Source: an uncultured Clostridia bacterium (GTDB lineage: Bacteria; Bacillota; Clostridia; Oscillospirales; Acutalibacteraceae). From it: a stretch of 64,000 bases of DNA. The notes under the pieces are model-generated. The model searched no databases. It was not told where the DNA came from and worked only from the letters and a program-made list of their open reading frames with translations. Within the stretch, counting starts at the first letter, position 1; each line of letters opens with the position of its first letter. The stretch spans positions 1-64,000 of the forward strand of contig CALZID010000002.1 of the NCBI GenBank assembly GCA_945787805.1, in the 5' to 3' direction. Positions 21,164-38,294 of this stretch are shown here, one piece after another. The position numbers and the translations under genes are program-made.

Positions 21164-21928
21164 ATGACTGATTCAAGAACATTGGCCTACATAAATATGT
21201 ATGCTGTTCTCGGCACATTGGAAAATCTTTGTGAACTCGACGAAAAAGCTAAAGAAATTCTTTCTACTGTTGAAAAGCCTATTTCGGTAGCTTTCGATGT
21301 TAAAGGCGGTCCGAGTGCTACACTCACATTTTCTAAAAACGGTTGCCGTATGGACGATGGCGTAAAATCCGATTGCGACATCAAAATCCCCGTTGCCAAC
21401 TGTGACAAGTTTAACGGAATTATTGACGGTAAAGTTACACCCATTCCCACAAAAGGCCTTACAAAGGTTAATTTCCTTTTAAAGACCTTCACAGCTTTGA
21501 CCGACAGACTCACAGAAGTTATGCGCCCCACAGAAGAAGCTCTTAAAGACCCTGACTTCTTCCGTCTTAACACTCTCTGCACATTCTATACCGTTTCGGT
21601 TGCCATTTCACAAATCGGCAATCAGGACGCTATCGGTAAATTCAGTGCATCAAATATTGTTGACGGTGATGTCCAACTTGGAATTACAGATACAGTTTAT
21701 GCAACTATCCGTGTTAAAGACAATCATCTTATTACAATCAAGCAAGCCTCTGACAAGCCCCGCGCAATTATGGAATTCTGTGACCTTGAGCTTGCAAATG
21801 CTCTTTTCGCAGGCACAGTCAATTCAATCGACCATGTAGGTAACGGTAACATCACAATTCGCGGACTTATTTCAATGGTTGACAATGTAAACCGCATTCT
21901 TGACAGAGTTGCATTGTATCTTGCATAA
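21164..21928 (+). CDS. SCP2-like lipid-binding domain protein (first copy)
   Basis: A 254-residue soluble protein that appears to contain two SCP2-like halves. Residues about 40-120 have the pattern DCDIKIPVANCDKFNGIIDGK; residues about 165-250 have ELANALFAGTVNSIDHVGNGNITIRG. This is the usual SCP2 pairing of a substrate strand with a later helix after which a Gly-rich turn follows. SCP2 domains bind acyl chains or other hydrophobic ligands. It heads a five-gene operon, 14 bases before the aminotransferase, with an AAGGAGGAATC SD. A similar protein closes the operon at 25204-26010, so substrate carrier or chaperone roles are likely. Family assignment is by pattern only. Confidence 0.7.
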   Translation: MTDSRTLAYINMYAVLGTLENLCELDEKAKEILSTVEKPISVAFDVKGGPSATLTFSKNGCRMDDGVKSDCDIKIPVANCDKFNGIIDGKVTPIPTKGLTKVNFLLKTFTALTDRLTEVMRPTEEALKDPDFFRLNTLCTFYTVSVAISQIGNQDAIGKFSASNIVDGDVQLGITDTVYATIRVKDNHLITIKQASDKPRAIMEFCDLELANALFAGTVNSIDHVGNGNITIRGLISMVDNVNRILDRVALYLA

Positions 21929-21942
21929 GGAGGACACTGAAA

Positions 21943-23211
21943 ATGAGTAAATTTCCAACATTTGATACTACAAAAAGCCGTGAGATGTTCGAGCGTGCAA
22001 CAAAGGTTATCCCCTCAGGCATTTACGGTCACTTAGGTCCTGCCGAAGGTCAGTGGATTCCCGTAAACAGATGGCCGTCTTTCGCAGAAAAAGCTCAGGG
22101 CTCATATTTCTGGGATGTTGACGGTAACAAATATATTGACTTTATGTGCGCATACGGTCCTAATGTTTTAGGTTATAATGACCCCGATGTTGATGCCGCA
22201 GCACTTGCACAGTTAAAGCTGGGTAACTGCACAACCGCACCGGGTAAAGTTATGGTTGAATGTGCAGAAAATCTTGTTGATACAGTTGCTTGTGCCGACT
22301 GGGCATTCTTCTGCAAAAACGGTTCTGACACAACTACACTTGCAGTTATTACCGCCCGTGCACACACTCACAAGAAAAAGATTATCTTCTTAAAAGGCTA
22401 TTATCACGGCGACTTCCAGTGGGCACAGAAAATCGACTATCCGGGTATCACTCCCGAAGATGTCGCAAACAATGTGATTGTTCCCTGGTTTGACCTTGAC
22501 GCACTTCAAAAAGCCTATGACGATAATAACGGTGATATAGCAGGTCTTATCGCTCAGCCTTATGACCACGGTAACTTTAAAGACAATGAAGTCGCTTCAA
22601 AAGAATATTGGCAGGCAGTTCGCAAATGGTGTGACGACCACGGCGTAGTTCTTATTATTGACGATGTTCGTGCCGGTTTCCGTCTTGACCTTGCAGGCTC
22701 CGACCATTACTACGGCTTCAAGGCAGACCTTATCTGCTTCTGCAAAGCACTTGCCAACGGCTACAATATGTCGGCGCTCTGCGGCGGCGAACACATGAAA
22801 GCCACAGTTTCAGGTGTTACATACACAGGTTCGTATTGGATGAGCGCCGTTCCTTTTGCGGCTTGTATCGCTTGTATTAACAAGATGAAAGCCCTTGACA
22901 CACCCGCATTGTTCCGCCGTCTCGGCACAATGGTAACGGATGGCTTCAAAAAGGCCGGTGCAGAACACGGTTTTGACCTTGTGGTTTCAGGTGAGCCCGC
23001 ACTCTTCTATTTAAGAATAGCAAACGATGACAACCTTATGCTTCATCAGGAATGGGTTGCCGAATGTGTAAACCGCGGATTATTCATCACATCTCACCAC
23101 AACCATTTCATCAATGCTTCTCTCACGGAAGAAGACATTAAAAAGGCAGTTGAAATCGCAGAAGACGCATTCTCGGTTGTTGCTAAAAATCACCCCGAGC
23201 TTAGAGGCTGA
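21943..23211 (+). CDS. Class III PLP aminotransferase (glutamate-1-semialdehyde aminomutase-like)
   Basis: A 422-residue fold type I PLP enzyme. The pattern follows GSA aminomutases: IPSGIYGHLGPAEGQ at the N-terminus, CKNGSDTTTLAVITAR, VLIIDDVRAGFR (PLP-ring Asp), and the Schiff-base lysine in ICFCKALANGYN. hem genes are absent nearby, and the partner genes are a split transketolase, so a haem role is unlikely. Class III enzymes transfer amino groups to and from aldehydes or ketones, or move them internally. I infer action on the ketose-type product of the transketolase. The SD is AAGGAGGACAC. Confidence 0.9.
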   Translation: MSKFPTFDTTKSREMFERATKVIPSGIYGHLGPAEGQWIPVNRWPSFAEKAQGSYFWDVDGNKYIDFMCAYGPNVLGYNDPDVDAAALAQLKLGNCTTAPGKVMVECAENLVDTVACADWAFFCKNGSDTTTLAVITARAHTHKKKIIFLKGYYHGDFQWAQKIDYPGITPEDVANNVIVPWFDLDALQKAYDDNNGDIAGLIAQPYDHGNFKDNEVASKEYWQAVRKWCDDHGVVLIIDDVRAGFRLDLAGSDHYYGFKADLICFCKALANGYNMSALCGGEHMKATVSGVTYTGSYWMSAVPFAACIACINKMKALDTPALFRRLGTMVTDGFKKAGAEHGFDLVVSGEPALFYLRIANDDNLMLHQEWVAECVNRGLFITSHHNHFINASLTEEDIKKAVEIAEDAFSVVAKNHPELRG

Positions 23212-23274
23212 TTACACAAATTAACGGAGTTGGGGAACTCCGCACATTATAAAAATTTATAGGGAGGCAGTTTT

Positions 23275-24156
23275 ATGCATAATCTCACAAAAGCAGAATG
23301 GCTTGCACTCGAAAAGAAAGCCTATGACCTTCGTAAGCTCTGCGTTCAAACAACGGTTTGGGCGGGCAGCGGACACTTCGGCGGCGGTATGAGTGTAATG
23401 GACCTTCTCACAGTTCTTTATCACAAATATCTCAACATTAAGGTTGACGAACCCAAATGGGACGACAGAGACCGTTTCATTCTTTCAAAAGGTCACGCGG
23501 CAATCGCTTATGCTCCCGTGCTTTGCGACAAGGGCTTCAACGATATGGAGATGCTCAAATCTTTCAACCTTTCAGGCTCAAAGATGGGTATGCACCTTGA
23601 CTCAAACAAGGTTGTCGGCGTTGACGCTTCAACGGGTTCTCTCGGTCACGGTCCGTCAATCGCAGCCGGTACTGCACTTGCGGCAAGACTTCAAAACAAA
23701 GATTTTCTCACCTATGTTGTTACAGGTGACGGCGAGCTTGACGAAGGCTCATGCTGGGAAGGTTTTATGACAATTAACCACTATCAGCTTTCAAATTGTA
23801 TTGTATTCATTGACAGAAATCACAATATGATTGACGGTAACACAGAAGATGTTAAGAAGCTTGAACCCCTTGCCGACAAAATGACAGCATTCGGCTTCAA
23901 CACAATCGTAGTTGACGGTAACAATATCGGTGAGCTCTGTGACGCTATTGATGTTGCAATCGAGAGAGCAAAAACACCGCAAGCTCCAACTTGTATTCTT
24001 ATGGATACAAAGAAGGGCGCAGGTATTAAATCAATCGAAGGCGACTACACATGGCACTACGGCGCTATTGACGACGCACTCTTTGAAAAATTCAACAAAG
24101 AGCTTGACGAAGACTATGCAGCTCGTGTTGCAAGAGCAGAGAAGGAGGGCAAATAA
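23275..24156 (+). CDS. Transketolase, N-terminal (TPP-binding) subunit
   Basis: A 293-residue subunit of a split transketolase. It carries the thiamine diphosphate site GDGELDEG with DRNHNMIDG and the N-terminal GHFGGGMSVMDLL and SKGHAAIAY. The pyrimidine-binding half is encoded by the next gene, two bases on. A complete single-chain transketolase would be about 650 residues; 293 plus 335 gives that total. Split forms are common in Clostridia and often serve specialised pathways as well as the pentose phosphate cycle. No pentose-phosphate genes are adjacent, so the acceptor aldehyde is open. Confidence 0.93.
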   Translation: MHNLTKAEWLALEKKAYDLRKLCVQTTVWAGSGHFGGGMSVMDLLTVLYHKYLNIKVDEPKWDDRDRFILSKGHAAIAYAPVLCDKGFNDMEMLKSFNLSGSKMGMHLDSNKVVGVDASTGSLGHGPSIAAGTALAARLQNKDFLTYVVTGDGELDEGSCWEGFMTINHYQLSNCIVFIDRNHNMIDGNTEDVKKLEPLADKMTAFGFNTIVVDGNNIGELCDAIDVAIERAKTPQAPTCILMDTKKGAGIKSIEGDYTWHYGAIDDALFEKFNKELDEDYAARVARAEKEGK

Positions 24157-24158
24157 TT

Positions 24159-25166
24159 ATGGCAGGCGGATTTGTTTATACAGCAGTTGACCAAACTGCA
24201 CTTTCTACAGCTGAAATTTACGGCAAGGCTCTCGCTGATATTATTATGAGAGACCCCAAGGTTGTTGCTATTACAGCCGACCTTGCAAAATCAACAAAGC
24301 TCGGTGATGTTTTAAAGGTTTGTCCCGAAAGAGTTATAAATGTAGGTATCGCAGAACAGGATATGTTCGGTGTTGCCGCAGGTATGGCAAGGGCAGGAAT
24401 GATTCCGTTCCTTTCAGGCTTCTCCGCATTCACATCAATGCGTGCTTGTGACCAGCTTCATACCGACATTTGCTATCAGAATGTAAACGCAAAGATTATT
24501 GCTACTCACTCAGGTACATCATTCGGTCAGGCGGGCTCAACACACCACGCTATTACTGACCTTGCTATTACAAGAGCAATGCCGAATCTCACGGTTATTG
24601 TTCCCGCAGACGGCTTTGAAACCGCAAACGCAGTTAATGCCGCTTACGAAAACTTTGGCCCTTACTATATCCGTATCAACCGCGGTTTTGACCGTGTTCT
24701 TTATGAAAATCAGGACTACGGCTTTGAGGTTGGTAAAGCAGTTGAAGTTCACGAAGGTACAGATATCACGGTTATCGCTTGCGGTTCCTGTGTATTCCAG
24801 GCTCGTGAAGCTGCAAAATTCCTTAAAAATTCAGACGGACTTTCAGTTCGTGTTCTCAATATGCACACAATTAAACCTATTGATGTTGAAGCTATTCAAA
24901 AGGCAATTTCCGATACAAGAAGAATTATCACAGTCGAAGACCACTTGGTAACAGGCGGTTTGGGTTCGGCAGTTGCAGAAGTTATGGCTCAATACGGCAA
25001 GGGCTGTGCATTCAAGATGCTCGGTCATAAGGGCTTTGCCATGATTGGTCTTCACGAAGATATTATGTCTGATGCGGGAATTGACGCTAACGGTATTATT
25101 TCTGCAGTTCGTGAAATGATGCAGGCAGACTTTGAAGAAGACGACAACTGGGATGACGAAGTTTAA
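24159..25166 (+). CDS. Transketolase, C-terminal (pyrimidine-binding) subunit
   Basis: A 335-residue partner of the preceding gene. It shows the catalytic glutamate region VINVGIAEQDMFGVAAGMA, the histidine-rich STHHAITDLAITRAMP, and the C-terminal domain VRVLNMHTIKPID. With the N-terminal subunit it moves a two-carbon ketol unit to an aldehyde acceptor. The ATG follows GGAGGGCAAATAATT. It is tightly coupled to the upstream subunit. DXS is excluded because the halves are separate and the order and motifs match the transketolase pairs. Confidence 0.93.
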   Translation: MAGGFVYTAVDQTALSTAEIYGKALADIIMRDPKVVAITADLAKSTKLGDVLKVCPERVINVGIAEQDMFGVAAGMARAGMIPFLSGFSAFTSMRACDQLHTDICYQNVNAKIIATHSGTSFGQAGSTHHAITDLAITRAMPNLTVIVPADGFETANAVNAAYENFGPYYIRINRGFDRVLYENQDYGFEVGKAVEVHEGTDITVIACGSCVFQAREAAKFLKNSDGLSVRVLNMHTIKPIDVEAIQKAISDTRRIITVEDHLVTGGLGSAVAEVMAQYGKGCAFKMLGHKGFAMIGLHEDIMSDAGIDANGIISAVREMMQADFEEDDNWDDEV

Positions 25167-25203
25167 TTTCTAAACTCAGCCATTCAGAAAGAGAGTTGAT
25201 AAT

Positions 25204-26010
25204 ATGCACGAACAAAATGAACTTTATGCTTCAAAAATATTTTTCAATGCAGCATTGCCGCTTTTGAAAGTTATTGCTACCGATGTTCCGTCACTTAAAG
25301 CTCAGTTTGACAAGCTCACAACCGTTTTACAGGTCAGTGCTCTTGACGCAGAAGCTGAAGGTGGCAAATATGCAACACATTTCATCATCACAGAGGGCGA
25401 GTGGGAAACGAAGCTCAATTCTGCTCACGAAGCTCCCGATGTTGAGCTTGAATTCAAAACAATCGAAGCAATGAATGCATTCTTTAAGGGTAAAATCGGT
25501 CCCGCCACACTTCCTAAGATGAAAGGTATCATTAAGAACTTTTCCGCATTCAAAGCAATGCTTATGACGCTTCTTAAGCTTTCGGCACTTACGGGAGCTA
25601 CCGAGCCGCCGAAGGATGAAGAAACAAAAAAACTTATGGTTAAATGCTTCTTCTATCTTCTTTCAAGCGGTATCAGTCAGCTTAACAAAATGGGGCACAC
25701 CGAAATCAAAGATTGGACTACAAAGAGTCCCGACCGTGTTTATGCTTTCGCAGTTGACGGTTATCCCGAAGTTTCTGCGTTCATCCGCATTAAAGCGGGC
25801 AAATCAAGAGCAGGCCGCGGCGAATACAAGAGAGCAATGCCTTTCTTTACGCTTCGTTTCAACAACCTTGATTCAGCACTCGGTATTCTTTTGGGAACAG
25901 CCGATATGCTTGAATCGACAAAATCAGGTAAACTCATTATGGACGGTGGTCCTGAATTCGGCGCACAGCTGGGCGGCTTTATGCTTGAAGTCGGCGCATT
26001 GGCAAAATAA
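25204..26010 (+). CDS. SCP2-like lipid-binding domain protein (second copy)
   Basis: A 268-residue relative of the first gene of the operon. It has the same general plan: ATHFIITEGEWETK, then VELEFKTIEAMNAFFKGKIG, and in the second half RFNNLDSALGILLGTADM with a closing LIMDGGPEFGAQLGG. It starts 37 bases after the transketolase and ends just before a terminator, so it is the last gene of the unit. Two diverged SCP2-like proteins around two enzymes suggest binding of a hydrophobic substrate and product. The assignment rests on residue patterns and on similarity to the first copy. Confidence 0.68.
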   Translation: MHEQNELYASKIFFNAALPLLKVIATDVPSLKAQFDKLTTVLQVSALDAEAEGGKYATHFIITEGEWETKLNSAHEAPDVELEFKTIEAMNAFFKGKIGPATLPKMKGIIKNFSAFKAMLMTLLKLSALTGATEPPKDEETKKLMVKCFFYLLSSGISQLNKMGHTEIKDWTTKSPDRVYAFAVDGYPEVSAFIRIKAGKSRAGRGEYKRAMPFFTLRFNNLDSALGILLGTADMLESTKSGKLIMDGGPEFGAQLGGFMLEVGALAK

Positions 26011-26016
26011 AACAGC

Positions 26017-26055
26017 AAAAAATATGACCGTAGATTTTTTCTACGGTCATTTTTT
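26017..26055. terminator. Bidirectional terminator between the operon and the ligase fusion
   Basis: ATGACCGTAG (26024-26033) and CTACGGTCAT (26041-26050) arms with A-run before and T-run after, so it can stop transcription from both converging units. Confidence 0.85.
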
Positions 26056-26061
26056 GTGCCT

Positions 26062-28671
26062 TTATTTATTAAACTGTTTTTGCAATTCGAGAATTGCATT
26101 TTTTACTTCGCTCGTCACTTCGTCAACAGTCTTTCCGTCCGTAGATATTTCATCACCGAATGCAACATCTACTTTATGTTTGCCCTTATTCTTTCTGTCG
26201 TAGAAACTCATAATCGTTTTTCCTTTTGGAAAAATCTCAAAAGAGCCGTTGATATATACGGGAATAATGGGTACGCCCGCATCAAGTGCCAACACCGACG
26301 CACCGTTTTTCATTGTGCGGAATATTCCGTCTTTACTGCGAGTACCTTCGGGATGAATAAGCACGCACCAGCCTTCATGAAGTTTTTCTTTAAGACTGTT
26401 CATTGAGCTGACATTCATTCCACCGCGGTCAACGGGCACCATACCCGTTGTTTTAATGAGTTTTTTGCTTAAAATATCATTGTGAAAAGCTTCTTTTTTC
26501 GCCATACAGCAAAGCTTGTTGAACTGCTCTTTTGAAAATGCCATCGAAACGAAAAGATAGTCAATTTTTGAAGCGTGATTTGCGCAGATAATATATCCTT
26601 TATCTTTCGGTAAAGCTTCTGCATTCTTAATTGTAACATCATAGCAAGAATTTGCAAGATTTCTAACCGCATTATATATTCGATAGTCGCTTTCGGTTTT
26701 TTCAAAAGGATAATTATGAGTATTCGCACGCTCTTCCGCTTCGTCCGTTGCACCGTTTTCAACCACGGTTACAATGTCGGCAACCGTCATTGTTTTTGAA
26801 TAGACTTTTTCAACATTTATACCGTATTCTTCTTCGATTTCCATAGCCATATCAACCGAGCTTAACGAGTCAATTGAGAGTTCTTCAAAAATCTTTGTAT
26901 TCTCGGTGATTTGTGATGCGGGAGTGCCCGAAACCTTTGACACAATGGCAATAATCTTTGAAAGCAGGCTGTCGTCGGCAATTGTTTCTTCAACTGAATT
27001 TTCACCATTGCGAGCGTCTATTGCCATCTTTTTTAGCAGATATCTCTTCGGCTTTTGTAAAGATGTGCGGGGAATTTCATTTACAAAGTGAATTTTAAAA
27101 AGTCGCATATTTTGAGCAACCTGTGAGCTTTTCTCTTTAAGATACTGCTCAATTTTTGCCTTTAATTCTTCTCTTTCGGCTACTACAAAAGCGTGAATTT
27201 CATCATAATCTTTGTTTTCGGCAGGAACGCCGCTGATTACAAACTCTTTAACACCGTCAATCCCTTGGTATTTTTCTTCCAAATCATCGGGAGTAACTTT
27301 TTTGCCTGTTGCGAGAACAATGTTTTCTTTGCAGCGACCGACGATTTTTATGTATCCGTTTTCATCCATAACACCTAAATCGCCGCTCTTGAACCATCCG
27401 TCTTCAGTAAACGCTTCTTTTGTTGCTTCTTCATCACGGAAATAGCCTTTCATCATATAAGGTGACTTAACAAGAATTTCACCTTCATCGCTGAATTTGA
27501 TTTGAACATCGGGATATGGCTTGCCGCAGGAATCGGTTTGAATTGACTCTGCAACATTACCGATTGTAGGAATATTTGTTTCAGATGCGCCGTAAGTTAT
27601 AAGAATATTAAAGCCTGTTCCGTAATAAAAATCTGCAACCTCTTGACTTAAAGGCGCACCGGCGGAGCAAAGGAATGTAAGGCTTCCGCCGAATCCTTCG
27701 TGAATACTCTTAAACAATTTCTTGCCAAGTAACGAACCTTTTTCTCTTCTTAATTTTAAACAAATCGGAAAGAATTGTTGAAACATAATTCTTGTTGCGG
27801 GTTTTGAATTGATTTTGCGAAGCACCGCAGTTCTGAACAGTTCATAAACCTTTGGAACAGCAGGTAAAACCGTTGGGTGATATTCTGCAAAAGCACCTAA
27901 AATTGCTTCTGCCGCAACAGTTTCAATGTAATGTACATCACCACCGCAAAGGGCGGGGCCCAAAACAAGACAAATTACACCGTAAATATGACTGTTTGGA
28001 ATAATTGAGAGAAAACGGTCATTCTCTGAAAGCTTCTGCACACCGATAGTCATCTGTGTAGTCTTAATAAGACTGTCGTGGTAGTGCATAATTCCCGCTG
28101 ATTTACGGGTTGTGCCCGACGAAAAGATTATGCACGCCACATTCTCATCACCGTCTGCGGTTTGGGGCAAATCTGCCGAAACCCTTTCTGCAGAGCCTTC
28201 AAAGAGTGAGCAGTCAAGAATATTAAAGGCAGGGAACGGGAATTTTGATAAATCGCCTATTTTTTCACGGGAACTTTTTGACAAAAACATAGCGCGCACA
28301 TCTGAACGCTCAACAAACTCGCAAAGCTCTATGCCCGTTAAAGATGCATCAATTAAAGAGGCGGTACATTTAATTTTGCAAGATGCTAAAAATGCAATAG
28401 TCCATTCGGGGCTGCTTTCTGCAACAAAAGCAATTCTGTCGCCCGCCTTAATGCCTGCGTCAATAAGCTTTTCTGCATATTTTTCTGCTGCCGCAAAAAC
28501 TTTGCCATAGCTATAAATGCGTTTATCACCGTTATTCATAGTGATTGACATTGCACGCTTGTTTAAATGTTTTGAATTTAATTCATAAATAGAGTCAAAA
28601 ATATTCATCTCTCTGTGAGCAATCTGCTCCCCTTTCGTAAAATACATACTAAATTTTAACACATTCGCCAT
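26062..28671 (-). CDS. Three-domain acyl ligase-ACP-acyltransferase
   Basis: An 869-residue fusion. Residues 1-550 are an AMP-forming acyl ligase: IIFSSGTTRKSAG at 181-193, DGWFKSGDLG, and a C-terminal PRTSLQKPKRYLL lysine region. Residues about 565-640 are a carrier domain with phosphopantetheine Ser602 (SIDSLSSVD). Residues about 665-869 are a PlsC-type acyltransferase with H699-x4-D704 (NHASKIDYLF) and HPEGTRS (773-779). I infer that an acyl group is activated, held on the internal carrier and transferred to an alcohol or amine headgroup. The E. coli Aas fusion has the opposite order and no ACP. It is convergent with the SCP2/transketolase operon. The SD is AAAGGGG. Confidence 0.92.
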   Translation of the reverse strand: MANVLKFSMYFTKGEQIAHREMNIFDSIYELNSKHLNKRAMSITMNNGDKRIYSYGKVFAAAEKYAEKLIDAGIKAGDRIAFVAESSPEWTIAFLASCKIKCTASLIDASLTGIELCEFVERSDVRAMFLSKSSREKIGDLSKFPFPAFNILDCSLFEGSAERVSADLPQTADGDENVACIIFSSGTTRKSAGIMHYHDSLIKTTQMTIGVQKLSENDRFLSIIPNSHIYGVICLVLGPALCGGDVHYIETVAAEAILGAFAEYHPTVLPAVPKVYELFRTAVLRKINSKPATRIMFQQFFPICLKLRREKGSLLGKKLFKSIHEGFGGSLTFLCSAGAPLSQEVADFYYGTGFNILITYGASETNIPTIGNVAESIQTDSCGKPYPDVQIKFSDEGEILVKSPYMMKGYFRDEEATKEAFTEDGWFKSGDLGVMDENGYIKIVGRCKENIVLATGKKVTPDDLEEKYQGIDGVKEFVISGVPAENKDYDEIHAFVVAEREELKAKIEQYLKEKSSQVAQNMRLFKIHFVNEIPRTSLQKPKRYLLKKMAIDARNGENSVEETIADDSLLSKIIAIVSKVSGTPASQITENTKIFEELSIDSLSSVDMAMEIEEEYGINVEKVYSKTMTVADIVTVVENGATDEAEERANTHNYPFEKTESDYRIYNAVRNLANSCYDVTIKNAEALPKDKGYIICANHASKIDYLFVSMAFSKEQFNKLCCMAKKEAFHNDILSKKLIKTTGMVPVDRGGMNVSSMNSLKEKLHEGWCVLIHPEGTRSKDGIFRTMKNGASVLALDAGVPIIPVYINGSFEIFPKGKTIMSFYDRKNKGKHKVDVAFGDEISTDGKTVDEVTSEVKNAILELQKQFNK

Positions 28672-35699: not shown

Positions 35700-36986
35700 T
35701 TGAACGAAATTAAAGATTATATTGTTTATCCTGAAAACCTTGATACAAAAATGCCCGACAGCATTCCCGACATTCAAAGCGATTTTTATAAAAATGTTGT
35801 GCGTCTTATCAGTAACTTCGTTCTTAAATTTATTGTTCGCGGCGGAAGCACCATTGAAAAAATAGATATGGAAGGTCTTAAACCCCCATATATTGTTCTC
35901 GCAAACCACACGCAGTTTGCCGATTTCTTTGTAAGCTTTAAAGCGGTGCCTCCCCACAGATTTAACAATATTGCCACTCTCGACGGATTTGTGGGTTTAG
36001 AAAAGCCTATGGCAAAGTTAGGTTGTGCCTGTCACAGAAAATATACCACGGATATCAGTCTTGTCCGTGCTTGCCACAAGGTTCTTCACGAATATAAAGA
36101 TGTGCTCTTTATGTATCCCGAAGCACGGTATTCAAATGTGGGAACAACTGCAATTATTCCCGAAGTTGTGGGAAAACTCGTAAAGAAAAACAAGGTTCCC
36201 CTTGTTATTATGCTTCACCACGGCAACTATCTCAATGCACCTTTTTGGGATTTTTCTCAACACAGAAAAGTGCCTTTTCACTCCACAATGAAAAAAGTGC
36301 TGACAGCGGAGCAAATCGAAAGCCTGTCGGTTGATGAAATCAATGAAATCATTCGCACAGAGCTTTGCTATGATGAATATAAATGGCAGAAAGAGAATAA
36401 TATCAGAATTACCGAAGATTTCAGAGCGGATAATCTGAACAGAATTCTTTATAAATGTCCCCACTGTATGACTGAGGGCAAAACCGTGGGCAAGGGTATT
36501 AATCTCACCTGTGAAGAATGCGGAAAGGTTTGGGAAATGACCGAGCTCGGCGAGATGAAAGCGCTGGACGGTGAAACCGAGTTTTCGCATATTCCCGACT
36601 GGTATGAGTGGGAAAGAGAATGTGTTCGTCAGGAGCTTCTCGACGGTACATATAAATATGAAGAAACTCTTCGTGTTCACTCTTTGCCGGGTTCAAAATA
36701 TATCGACATAGGCGAAGCGCATGTTACCCATGACCTTGAAAACGGATTTGTTATCGAAGGCGAATATAATAAAAATAAATACAGAATTCAGCGCCGTACA
36801 AATACGCTCTATACTCTGCACAATGAATTTTCATTTATAAAGCTCGGCAGGGTTGACTGTTTTGATGTTTCGGTGAACGACAATTCTTTCTATTGTATTC
36901 CGTCACAGAAAGATGTTGTCACAAAGCTTATGCTGGCAACGGAAGAAGCCCATAAAATTGTAAATGAAAAGGTTGCAACGGTTTAA
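35700..36986 (+). CDS. PlsC-like acyltransferase with zinc ribbon (copy 1)
   Basis: A 428-residue protein beginning at TTG after GGCGGTGAT. Residues about 50-230 form a PlsC-type acyltransferase domain: H70-x4-D75 (ANHTQFADF) and MYPEARYS, a variant of FPEGTRS. A zinc ribbon CPHC...CEEC follows at about 245-275, then a beta-rich C-terminal domain. Acyltransferases of this family move acyl chains to glycerol-3-phosphate or other acceptors; a zinc ribbon is unusual there. The next gene six bases on encodes a close relative, so tandem duplication is likely. No transmembrane segment is obvious. Confidence 0.82.
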   Translation: MNEIKDYIVYPENLDTKMPDSIPDIQSDFYKNVVRLISNFVLKFIVRGGSTIEKIDMEGLKPPYIVLANHTQFADFFVSFKAVPPHRFNNIATLDGFVGLEKPMAKLGCACHRKYTTDISLVRACHKVLHEYKDVLFMYPEARYSNVGTTAIIPEVVGKLVKKNKVPLVIMLHHGNYLNAPFWDFSQHRKVPFHSTMKKVLTAEQIESLSVDEINEIIRTELCYDEYKWQKENNIRITEDFRADNLNRILYKCPHCMTEGKTVGKGINLTCEECGKVWEMTELGEMKALDGETEFSHIPDWYEWERECVRQELLDGTYKYEETLRVHSLPGSKYIDIGEAHVTHDLENGFVIEGEYNKNKYRIQRRTNTLYTLHNEFSFIKLGRVDCFDVSVNDNSFYCIPSQKDVVTKLMLATEEAHKIVNEKVATV

Positions 36987-36992
36987 AAGATT

Positions 36993-38294
36993 ATGAATAT
37001 AAACGAAAATTTTTCAACAGAAATTGTTTATCCCCCTGAGATTAAACGATATGACACATCTAATCAGCCATTAGTGCAATCCGGTTGGTTGACAGGTTTG
37101 GCTTGGTTTGCATCAAGTTTATTGCTTGCTTGTTTAAGAAAGGGATACAAAGTCGAAAAGACAAATATGAAAGGTTTAAAGCCTCCCTACATTTTACTTA
37201 TAAATCACATGCAACCCCTTGATTTTTGCTTTATGTATAAAATGTTTTTTCCGCATAAAGTCAGCACAGTGGCAGCTTATCATACATACACCGGCGTTTC
37301 TGACCTTATGGAAAAATTAGGCTGTATTATTACACGCAAACATATTGCAGATATCGGTCTTGTTCGTGCCTGCAAAAAAGTTTTACAAGAGCAAAAAGGT
37401 ATTTTCTGTATGTTCCCCGAAGCAGGATATTCCCCTGTGGGAACCTTGGGAATTTTGCCTGATTCTCTGGGTAAATTGGCAAAAAAAAGCGGTGTTCCCG
37501 TGGTGGTTATGCTTCAACGGGGCAGTTATCTCAATCTGCCTTTCTGGACAAATTCCAAGCACCGCAAAACGCCTGTTAAAATCGAGTTAAAACAAATTCT
37601 TACCCCCGAAGAATTAGAGTCAAAAAGCGCGGACGAAATCAATGAGATTATCCGCAAAGAAATGGACTATAATGAATATGAGTGGCAAAAAGAAAACGAT
37701 ATTCGCATTAAGTCAAAGGACCGTGCGCAGGGACTTCACAAGGTGCTCTATCAATGCCCCCACTGTATGCGTGAAGGCAAAATGAATTCAGACGGTATTC
37801 ACCTTTTCTGTGAAGAATGCGGTAAAAAGTGGGAAATGACTGAGCTTGGCGAAATGAAAGCGACGGACGGTGAAACAGAGTTTTCGCATATTCCCGACTG
37901 GTTTAATTGGCAGAGAGAAAATGTCCGTCGGCAAATACTTAACGGTGAATATCTCTTTGAAGACGAAGTTGAAATTTACTCTTTACCCGGTGTTGAAAGC
38001 TTTGTTAATTTAGGCAAAGCAAAGCTTACTCATTCCCTTGAAGACGGCTTTGTTATAACGGGTATTTTCAATGAGCACCCCTACCGTATTCAGCGTCTTC
38101 CGAAAGGGCATTACGATTTGCATGTTGAATATGAATTTCAAAGACTAAAGGGACCCGACTGTTTTTCTTTTTCAACCAAAAACGACACTTTTTTCTGCAT
38201 ACCGAGTAAAAAAGATGTTGTTACGAAACTCACTCTCGCAACGGAAGAAATATATAAAATCTTAAATGACAGTAAAGAAACCGTAAAAGCATAA
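36993..38294 (+). CDS. PlsC-like acyltransferase with zinc ribbon (copy 2)
   Basis: A 433-residue paralogue of the preceding gene with the same architecture: H-x4-D in INHMQPLDFCF, MFPEAGYSPVG in the FPEGTRS place, a zinc ribbon CPHCMREG...CEECGKKWEMTELGEMK, and the shared FSHIPDW and SLPG patches. A hydrophobic stretch near residues 35-50 (LAWFASSLLLACLR) may tether it to the membrane. The two copies differ in the substrate-binding blocks, so different acyl acceptors are possible. A terminator follows, so the two genes form one unit. Confidence 0.82.
   Translation: MNINENFSTEIVYPPEIKRYDTSNQPLVQSGWLTGLAWFASSLLLACLRKGYKVEKTNMKGLKPPYILLINHMQPLDFCFMYKMFFPHKVSTVAAYHTYTGVSDLMEKLGCIITRKHIADIGLVRACKKVLQEQKGIFCMFPEAGYSPVGTLGILPDSLGKLAKKSGVPVVVMLQRGSYLNLPFWTNSKHRKTPVKIELKQILTPEELESKSADEINEIIRKEMDYNEYEWQKENDIRIKSKDRAQGLHKVLYQCPHCMREGKMNSDGIHLFCEECGKKWEMTELGEMKATDGETEFSHIPDWFNWQRENVRRQILNGEYLFEDEVEIYSLPGVESFVNLGKAKLTHSLEDGFVITGIFNEHPYRIQRLPKGHYDLHVEYEFQRLKGPDCFSFSTKNDTFFCIPSKKDVVTKLTLATEEIYKILNDSKETVKA

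Follow-up and report, generated by a model that had tools for sequence, protein, structure and literature searches.

A conserved operon of gut Clostridia that may encode a route to sphingosine-like lipids bypassing the usual first enzyme

Introduction

What would a Clostridia bacterium do with a class III aminotransferase and a two-chain transketolase that are encoded side by side, each accompanied by an SCP2-like protein? The question is raised by five genes in a 64,000-nt stretch of DNA (hereafter, the window) from an uncultured member of the Acutalibacteraceae (GenBank assembly GCA_945787805.1, contig CALZID010000002.1, positions 1 to 64,000). The five open reading frames (ORFs), all on the plus strand, were named A, AT, tkN, tkC and E, where A and E are SCP2-like, AT is the aminotransferase, and tkN and tkC are the transketolase chains. 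An earlier note, made from the letters of the window alone, had proposed that they form a pathway to a sphingoid-type base that does not use serine palmitoyltransferase, and had named an amino-polyol or amino-sugar as the alternative product. Sphingolipids of Bacteroides affect host immunity and metabolism, and, to our knowledge, gut Clostridia of this kind are not known as sphingolipid makers.

Here, we propose that the product of the operon is a long-chain 2-amino-1,3-diol, a sphingoid-type base, formed without serine palmitoyltransferase; we hold this reading tentatively, as a serious possibility that falls short of an even chance. A long-chain aldehyde would be handed by E to the split transketolase tkN/tkC, which would extend it by a two-carbon ketol unit, hydroxylated and taken from a ketose phosphate donor, giving a 1,3-dihydroxy-2-ketone. 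This ketone would be handed by A to AT, an aminotransferase of the FumI type, and amination at C2 would give the 2-amino-1,3-diol. What we infer is that the chain is long, that the steps follow this order and direction, and that A and E serve as carriers; what we observed is the gene set, its conservation, its division into two modules that each include an SCP2-like protein, the intact catalytic histidines, the remodelled transketolase site and the FumI kinship. The reading draws on three separate lines of evidence: the kinship of AT with FumI, the remodelling of the transketolase site together with intact donor-side histidines, and the presence of a carrier-like protein for each enzyme.

Results

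The aminotransferase is of the FumI type

When the AT family profile was compared with sequences of the PDB, FumI (6hbs) was at the top of 191 matched sequences (326 bits, E 2.9e-96), and the runner-up was glutamate-1-semialdehyde aminomutase (GSAM), with 175 bits. The AT protein of the window shares 38% identity with FumI over 408 amino acids and 27% with GSAM 4e77, the pairwise scores being 292 and 165 bits, respectively (one GSAM was compared). Its motif CFCKALANGYN aligns its lysine with that of CWGKCFANGYP in FumI, and the two proteins, members of the same class III subfamily, share MCAYGPNxLGY, KNGSD and DDVRAGFR. Among the 86 class III proteins encoded in the 80 loci described below, from which the AT of locus L107 was absent, 79 were nearer to FumI, and these were the operon aminotransferases; the remaining seven, all of them second, neighbouring aminotransferases, were nearer to GSAM. 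The assignment of AT as HemL was rejected, as it scored 184.9 bits against the cut-off of 527.3 bits of the hemL NCBIfam equivalog, and so was that as the guanitoxin enzyme GntE (212.4 bits against 525 bits), FumI being far closer in both cases. AT is thus, by sequence, a FumI-type class III aminotransferase, and it is predicted to act at C2 of long-chain substrates.

FumI uses pyruvate, and is not known to have an SCP2-like or transketolase partner. According to PMC9858248, FumI removes the C2 amine from hydrolysed fumonisin B1 and is one of two transaminases reported earlier to act on it, fumonisins are sphinganine-like in structure, and the related FumUPTA uses pyruvate. FumI differs from the role proposed for AT in that it belongs to a route of mycotoxin degradation and acts as a deaminase.

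In 7 of the 80 loci (L037, L038, L058, L060, L062, L065 and L086), a class II aldolase-like gene of the FucA/AraD type is present together with a gene of a GSAM-like class III aminotransferase. In L037, L038 and L086, this pair lies immediately upstream of A, in divergent orientation.

The transketolase has intact catalytic histidines and a remodelled acceptor site

The nearest solved relatives of tkN and tkC were the corresponding chains of the split transketolase of Carboxydothermus hydrogenoformans (6yak and 6yaj, respectively; PMC7661550), which has the same two-chain layout and domains. The tkN and tkC sequences of the operon type were assigned by score, and the mapping between human and E. 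coli residues is our own. Among the residues for catalysis and thiamine diphosphate binding, the equivalents of human His37, His77, His110, Asp155, Asn185 and His258 were kept in all 83 operon-type tkN sequences, and those of E. coli His26, His66, His100 and His261 were present in 83/83. In tkC, the glutamate equivalent to human Glu366 was found in 81/81 rows and a histidine at human position 428 in 77/77, while the position of Phe389 was occupied by methionine in two rows, both from one genome.

The acceptor side of the active site is changed. Human Asp424 (Asp469 in E. coli) is replaced by alanine in 77/77 distinct operon-type tkC sequences, and the motif that reads GEDG in the ordinary enzyme is GQAG in the tkC of the window. 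Human Arg101 (Arg91 in E. coli) is replaced by asparagine in 82 of 83 operon-type tkN sequences, the remaining one being masked as X, and the same position is asparagine in 6/6 intermediate tkN sequences. The residue preceding E. coli His100 is methionine or isoleucine instead of glycine, and human Arg318 is lost in 76 of 77 operon-type tkC sequences. In contrast, ordinary split transketolases, that of the window's own genome included, kept the aspartate (4/4 tkC), the arginine (5/5 tkN) and the glycine, and the C. hydrogenoformans enzyme also keeps the Arg91- and Asp469-type residues and GEDG.

Asp424 and Arg101 (human numbering) form a salt bridge (PMC5073344), and the E. coli variant D469T is termed 'propanal-accepting' in PMC10787763. 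The acceptor site of the operon enzyme is thus altered at a residue engineered for non-hydroxylated aldehydes, which fits the ketol transfer predicted for it. Pyruvate-using transketolase variants bear H100L or H473N (PMC10787763). Since the operon transketolase retains the equivalents of both His100 and His473, a hydroxylated donor is expected.

Two other roles were considered for this enzyme. That of an ordinary pentose-phosphate transketolase was rejected as its main role, because the genome encodes another split transketolase with a canonical site. A product of the 1-deoxy type, to which the substrate of FumI itself belongs, would be made from pyruvate and is less likely, as the His100 and His473 equivalents are kept and the N-terminal chain matches transketolase far better than DXS. 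Pyruvate-derived transketolase products are mentioned as spisulosine precursors in PMC10787763.

Genome G329 also encodes a split transketolase whose acceptor site is remodelled in a similar way, with glycine at the aspartate position and asparagine at the arginine position (L159, 7650-9480). Its neighbours, named by eye, are a GntR regulator, a short-chain dehydrogenase/reductase and an alcohol dehydrogenase. This enzyme suggests a wider subfamily of remodelled transketolases.

The paralogues A and E bear a probable remote similarity to SCP2

The Pfam SCP2 family (PF02036) gave no match for the window's own A or E proteins, and weak matches were obtained for 10 of 30 relatives of A (best 4.2e-5) and 2 of 27 relatives of E (best 0.0018). 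In profile-profile comparisons with enlarged profiles of 117 A and 78 E sequences, and with an SCP2 profile built from 7 of the 10 SCP2 matches, the probability of similarity to SCP2 was 92.6% for A and 69.4% for E, as compared to 0.1% and 0.2% for the AT and tkN profiles used as controls. The A and E profiles matched each other with a probability of 99.4% (89.3% with smaller alignments). The earlier label of both proteins as SCP2-like stands, therefore, as a remote profile similarity and not as a Pfam assignment, and A and E are, judging from these profiles, paralogues.

When the alignments were split midway, the C-terminal half of A (92.2%) and the N-terminal half of E (62.9%) resembled SCP2. 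The two halves of A resembled each other (80%) and those of E did not (3.9%); A is probably a tandem-built protein. The genome of the window also encodes one separate small SCP2-domain protein that scores above the Pfam cut-off (G000:C12:45528-45791).

The operon is conserved and consists of two modules

When AT was used to scan a collection of 84,980 species genomes, 263 relatives were obtained, and the 80 best of them form the locus set. All five genes were complete and in order in 68 of these 80 loci, among them that of Eubacterium coprostanoligenes ATCC 51222 (L091). Of the other 12, 8 run off the end of a contig (L037, L039, L065, L077, L092, L098, L103 and L105), A is broken in two in L072, and in L075, L106 and L107 A and AT occur with no transketolase module alongside. 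When loci were retrieved by A alone, AT adjoined A in 30 out of 30, the window locus included. The conservation of the neighbourhood, which the earlier note had set beforehand as its check, was thereby borne out.

We also searched a sample of 200 genomes of the family and one of 398 genomes of the phylum. In the family sample, A was found in 48 genomes (hereafter, operon genomes) and E in 45, all of which also have A; G077, G188 and G198 have A and lack E. A and E lie on one contig in 42 of the 45 genomes and apart in G022, G043 and G063, of which the G022 locus was inspected. In the phylum sample, A was present in 7 genomes, 5 of which also have E, and the window's genome counts among the 7 and the 5.

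The operon is built from two modules, A-AT and tkN-tkC-E. Both are present but lie on separate contigs in four genomes: G597 (L075 and L134), G598 (L107 and L135), and G022 and G359, which are distant. G166 has the permuted order tkN-tkC-E-A-AT, and further genes separate the modules in G013 and G167. A small ORF separates A from AT in G013, and A is beside AT in all other loci inspected. Similarly, E is downstream of tkC even where tkN-tkC-E is unlinked from A-AT, with one gene separating the two in G167; in G329, a contig end falls inside tkC and the search of the genome for E was negative. Each enzyme thus retains its own SCP2-like partner.

The flanks of the operon vary by lineage, and include secA (24 loci), a fabG-like gene, a gene named by eye as trpS-like, and others. 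In the 24 loci with secA, the mean identity to the window was 85.0% for AT, 84.9% for tkC, 81.1% for tkN, 80.3% for SecA, 75.5% for E and 72.5% for A. Such a level of conservation of AT fits a housekeeping role, and the slow evolution favours biosynthesis over catabolism as the putative direction.

One locus (L085, JAMPEQ010000001.1) is titled Bacteroides sp. It carries the operon and shares its upstream genes with the Eubacterium-labelled L082, so the Bacteroides name is probably wrong.

Operon genomes have no strong match to an alpha-oxoamine synthase

The profile TIGR01825 of alpha-oxoamine synthases, the enzyme type to which serine palmitoyltransferase belongs, had no match in the window's genome. 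Strong matches (at least 283 bits) were found in 14 of the 200 family genomes and in none of the 48 operon genomes, a zero overlap with a chance of about 0.02 by a rough estimate that ignores kinship. Weak matches (at most 43 bits) were found in many genomes, operon genomes included, and are most likely other aminotransferases. The supposed absence of serine palmitoyltransferase is in line with these results.

Operon layout and neighbouring genes

The coordinates of the features are given in Table 1. The gaps between consecutive ORFs are 14, 63, 2 and 37 bp, and the matches of tkN and tkC to their Pfam domains exceed the gathering scores. The sequence, as read by us, has clear GGAGG-type Shine-Dalgarno sites upstream of A, AT, tkN and tkC, and a weaker one upstream of E (AAAGAGAG). 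Thus, the earlier description of five co-directional genes with short gaps and one terminator was correct, as were the annotations of a class III aminotransferase and a split transketolase, which the Pfam domains confirm, while strong Shine-Dalgarno sites are a feature of four of the genes and not of E.

Table 1. Features of the five-gene operon in the window.
Feature	Position	Strand	Description
Gene A	21164..21928	+	254 amino acids; SCP2-like, probably tandem; aminotransferase partner
Gene AT	21943..23211	+	422 amino acids; class III aminotransferase, FumI type; Pfam Aminotran_3
Hairpin in AT-tkN gap	23224..23243	+	loop GGGG
Gene tkN	23275..24156	+	293 amino acids; transketolase N-terminal (thiamine diphosphate/Mg) chain; Pfam Transketolase_N
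Gene tkC	24159..25166	+	335 amino acids; pyrimidine-binding and C-terminal chain; Pfam Transket_pyr and Transketolase_C
Gene E	25204..26010	+	268 amino acids; SCP2-like paralogue of A; transketolase partner
Intrinsic-terminator-like stem	26024..26050	+	11 pairs and T run; also suits convergent gene

Hairpins with a G-rich loop are also present in the AT-tkN gap of the close relatives L034, L035 and L040, where the bases of the stem are other and the pairing is kept, and are missing or altered in distant relatives. Conserved RNA structure is not general in the gaps: folding more than 3 kcal/mol below that of 30 mononucleotide shuffles was seen in 15 of the 76 gaps between AT and tkN and in 16 of the 63 between tkC and E.

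A convergent gene (26062-28671, minus strand), whose product fuses an AMP-ligase with an acyl carrier and a PlsC-like acyltransferase, shares the operon terminator in the window. It was rejected as a part of the system, as it was not detected beside the operon in other loci, where neighbour matches covering less than 40% of the query were ignored. Farther downstream in the window, two tandem paralogues (35700-36986 and 36993-38294) resemble, by eye, acyltransferases of the PlsC type and include a cysteine-rich segment similar to a zinc ribbon.

Discussion

The proposed pathway combines elements that occur in other systems. Laboratory cascades of transketolase and transaminase make amino-diols by reactions in the same order as proposed here; they are engineered and work without carrier proteins. 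SCP2 carrier domains are fused to or paired with lipid enzymes in the SCPx thiolase and UbiJ, which resemble the operon in having a carrier-like partner for the enzyme, but differ from it in that A and E of the window are below Pfam thresholds. The serine palmitoyltransferase route leads to the product class proposed here, long-chain 2-amino-1,3-diols, and starts from serine and acyl-CoA, whereas the proposed route would start from a ketol and an aldehyde. Judging from the usual stereochemistry of transketolase, which would give a 3S base, the product is predicted to differ in C3 configuration from ordinary sphinganine, which is 3R. That gut Clostridia have here a natural path, independent of serine palmitoyltransferase, to membrane lipids of the sphingoid type, with a transketolase that extends fatty aldehydes, a FumI-type aminotransferase, a carrier for each of the two and probably 3S bases, is a broader claim, which we regard as possible but more doubtful. 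Nothing relevant to a prior description of the gene set was found among open PubMed Central papers, judged by their titles, in agreement with the earlier note, whose author knew of no such pathway.

Several observations weigh against the proposed pathway. A LuxC-type reductase, which could be the source of the fatty aldehyde, was not found in the window's genome, and among the 48 operon genomes LuxC-type matches were limited to G008 and G013 (26 bits, cut-off 21); for want of co-occurrence with the operon, this candidate was rejected. The inference of a sphingoid pattern in the earlier note is thus favoured by the FumI-like aminotransferase and the altered acceptor site, and is left without an aldehyde source of the LuxC type. 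Besides the five genes, each neighbouring family is confined to at most 24 of the 80 loci, so that the operon has no constant link to an acyltransferase gene or any other lipid gene. None of three patterns for lipid-regulator boxes was found upstream of the operon. The N-terminal half of A (18.8%) and the C-terminal half of E (1.1%) fell short of a match to SCP2.

Other such observations concern the transketolase, and some of them would suit a water-soluble product, an amino-polyol or amino-sugar, with A and E serving as scaffold or activator proteins that have lost lipid carriage. The phosphate-site residues Ser345 (with one threonine), His416 and Arg474 (human numbering) are kept in operon-type tkC, and phosphorylated substrates may therefore be accepted. 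The distant tkC sequences of G022 and G359 retain Arg318, and have serine and alanine, respectively, at the aspartate position. As the remodelled transketolase of G329 lies in a sugar-type context, the change of the site is by itself no proof of a lipid acceptor. Teichoic-acid polymerase-like genes are near the operon, and never adjacent to it, in 16 of the 80 loci, and a link to them was not accepted. However, the FumI kinship of AT and the SCP2-like protein that accompanies each enzyme point to a hydrophobic substrate, and no sugar-activating gene is constantly linked to the operon. This alternative, weakened by the FumI kinship and the change of the acceptor site, is retained as an unlikely one.

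The same enzymes could also work in reverse, in the breakdown of dietary or host sphingoid bases: AT would move the C2 amine to a keto acid, and the transketolase would move the ketol unit to a sugar phosphate and free the fatty aldehyde. Fumonisin transaminases such as FumI run in the deaminating direction, and FumI, the nearest characterised relative of AT, is a detoxification enzyme (PMC9858248). In addition, many records of the operon come from animal gut or rumen samples, and an iron-type alcohol dehydrogenase gene adjoins A-AT in G022. However, by the same count of 24 of 80 loci, the operon has no constant link to genes for an importer, a regulator, a ceramidase or an aldehyde dehydrogenase, and the conservation of AT at the level of SecA would be unusual for an accessory catabolic trait. 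In one mouse study, sphinganine was assimilated almost solely by Bacteroides, with Firmicutes among the unlabelled cells (PMC7910519); this result does not address the operon group itself, and bears neither way on de novo synthesis in it. We consider breakdown rather unlikely.

Finally, A-AT might be a general module for other hydrophobic amines or ketones, for instance sterol- or isoprenoid-derived ones, to which the transketolase module supplies the substrate in some lineages. Genome G418 (6.4 Mb) has A-AT beside an APC-type amino acid permease gene, without E or an operon-type transketolase (L130, 8846-12326), possibly another use of the module, and the draft genome G596 likewise has A-AT without these genes. 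G077, G188 and G198 also have A-AT without E, which was the part of the transketolase module searched for there. However, within the family sample, E of the transketolase module accompanies A in 45 of 48 operon genomes, and we find this explanation improbable.

The conserved operon may, then, represent a route to sphingosine-like lipids that bypasses the usual first enzyme. If this is true, gut Clostridia would own a chemistry for such lipids, which would be a second, convergent route to them, and their products would have another stereochemistry and would escape searches based on serine palmitoyltransferase. Should the pathway run in reverse, the operon would represent a new gut route of sphingoid breakdown.

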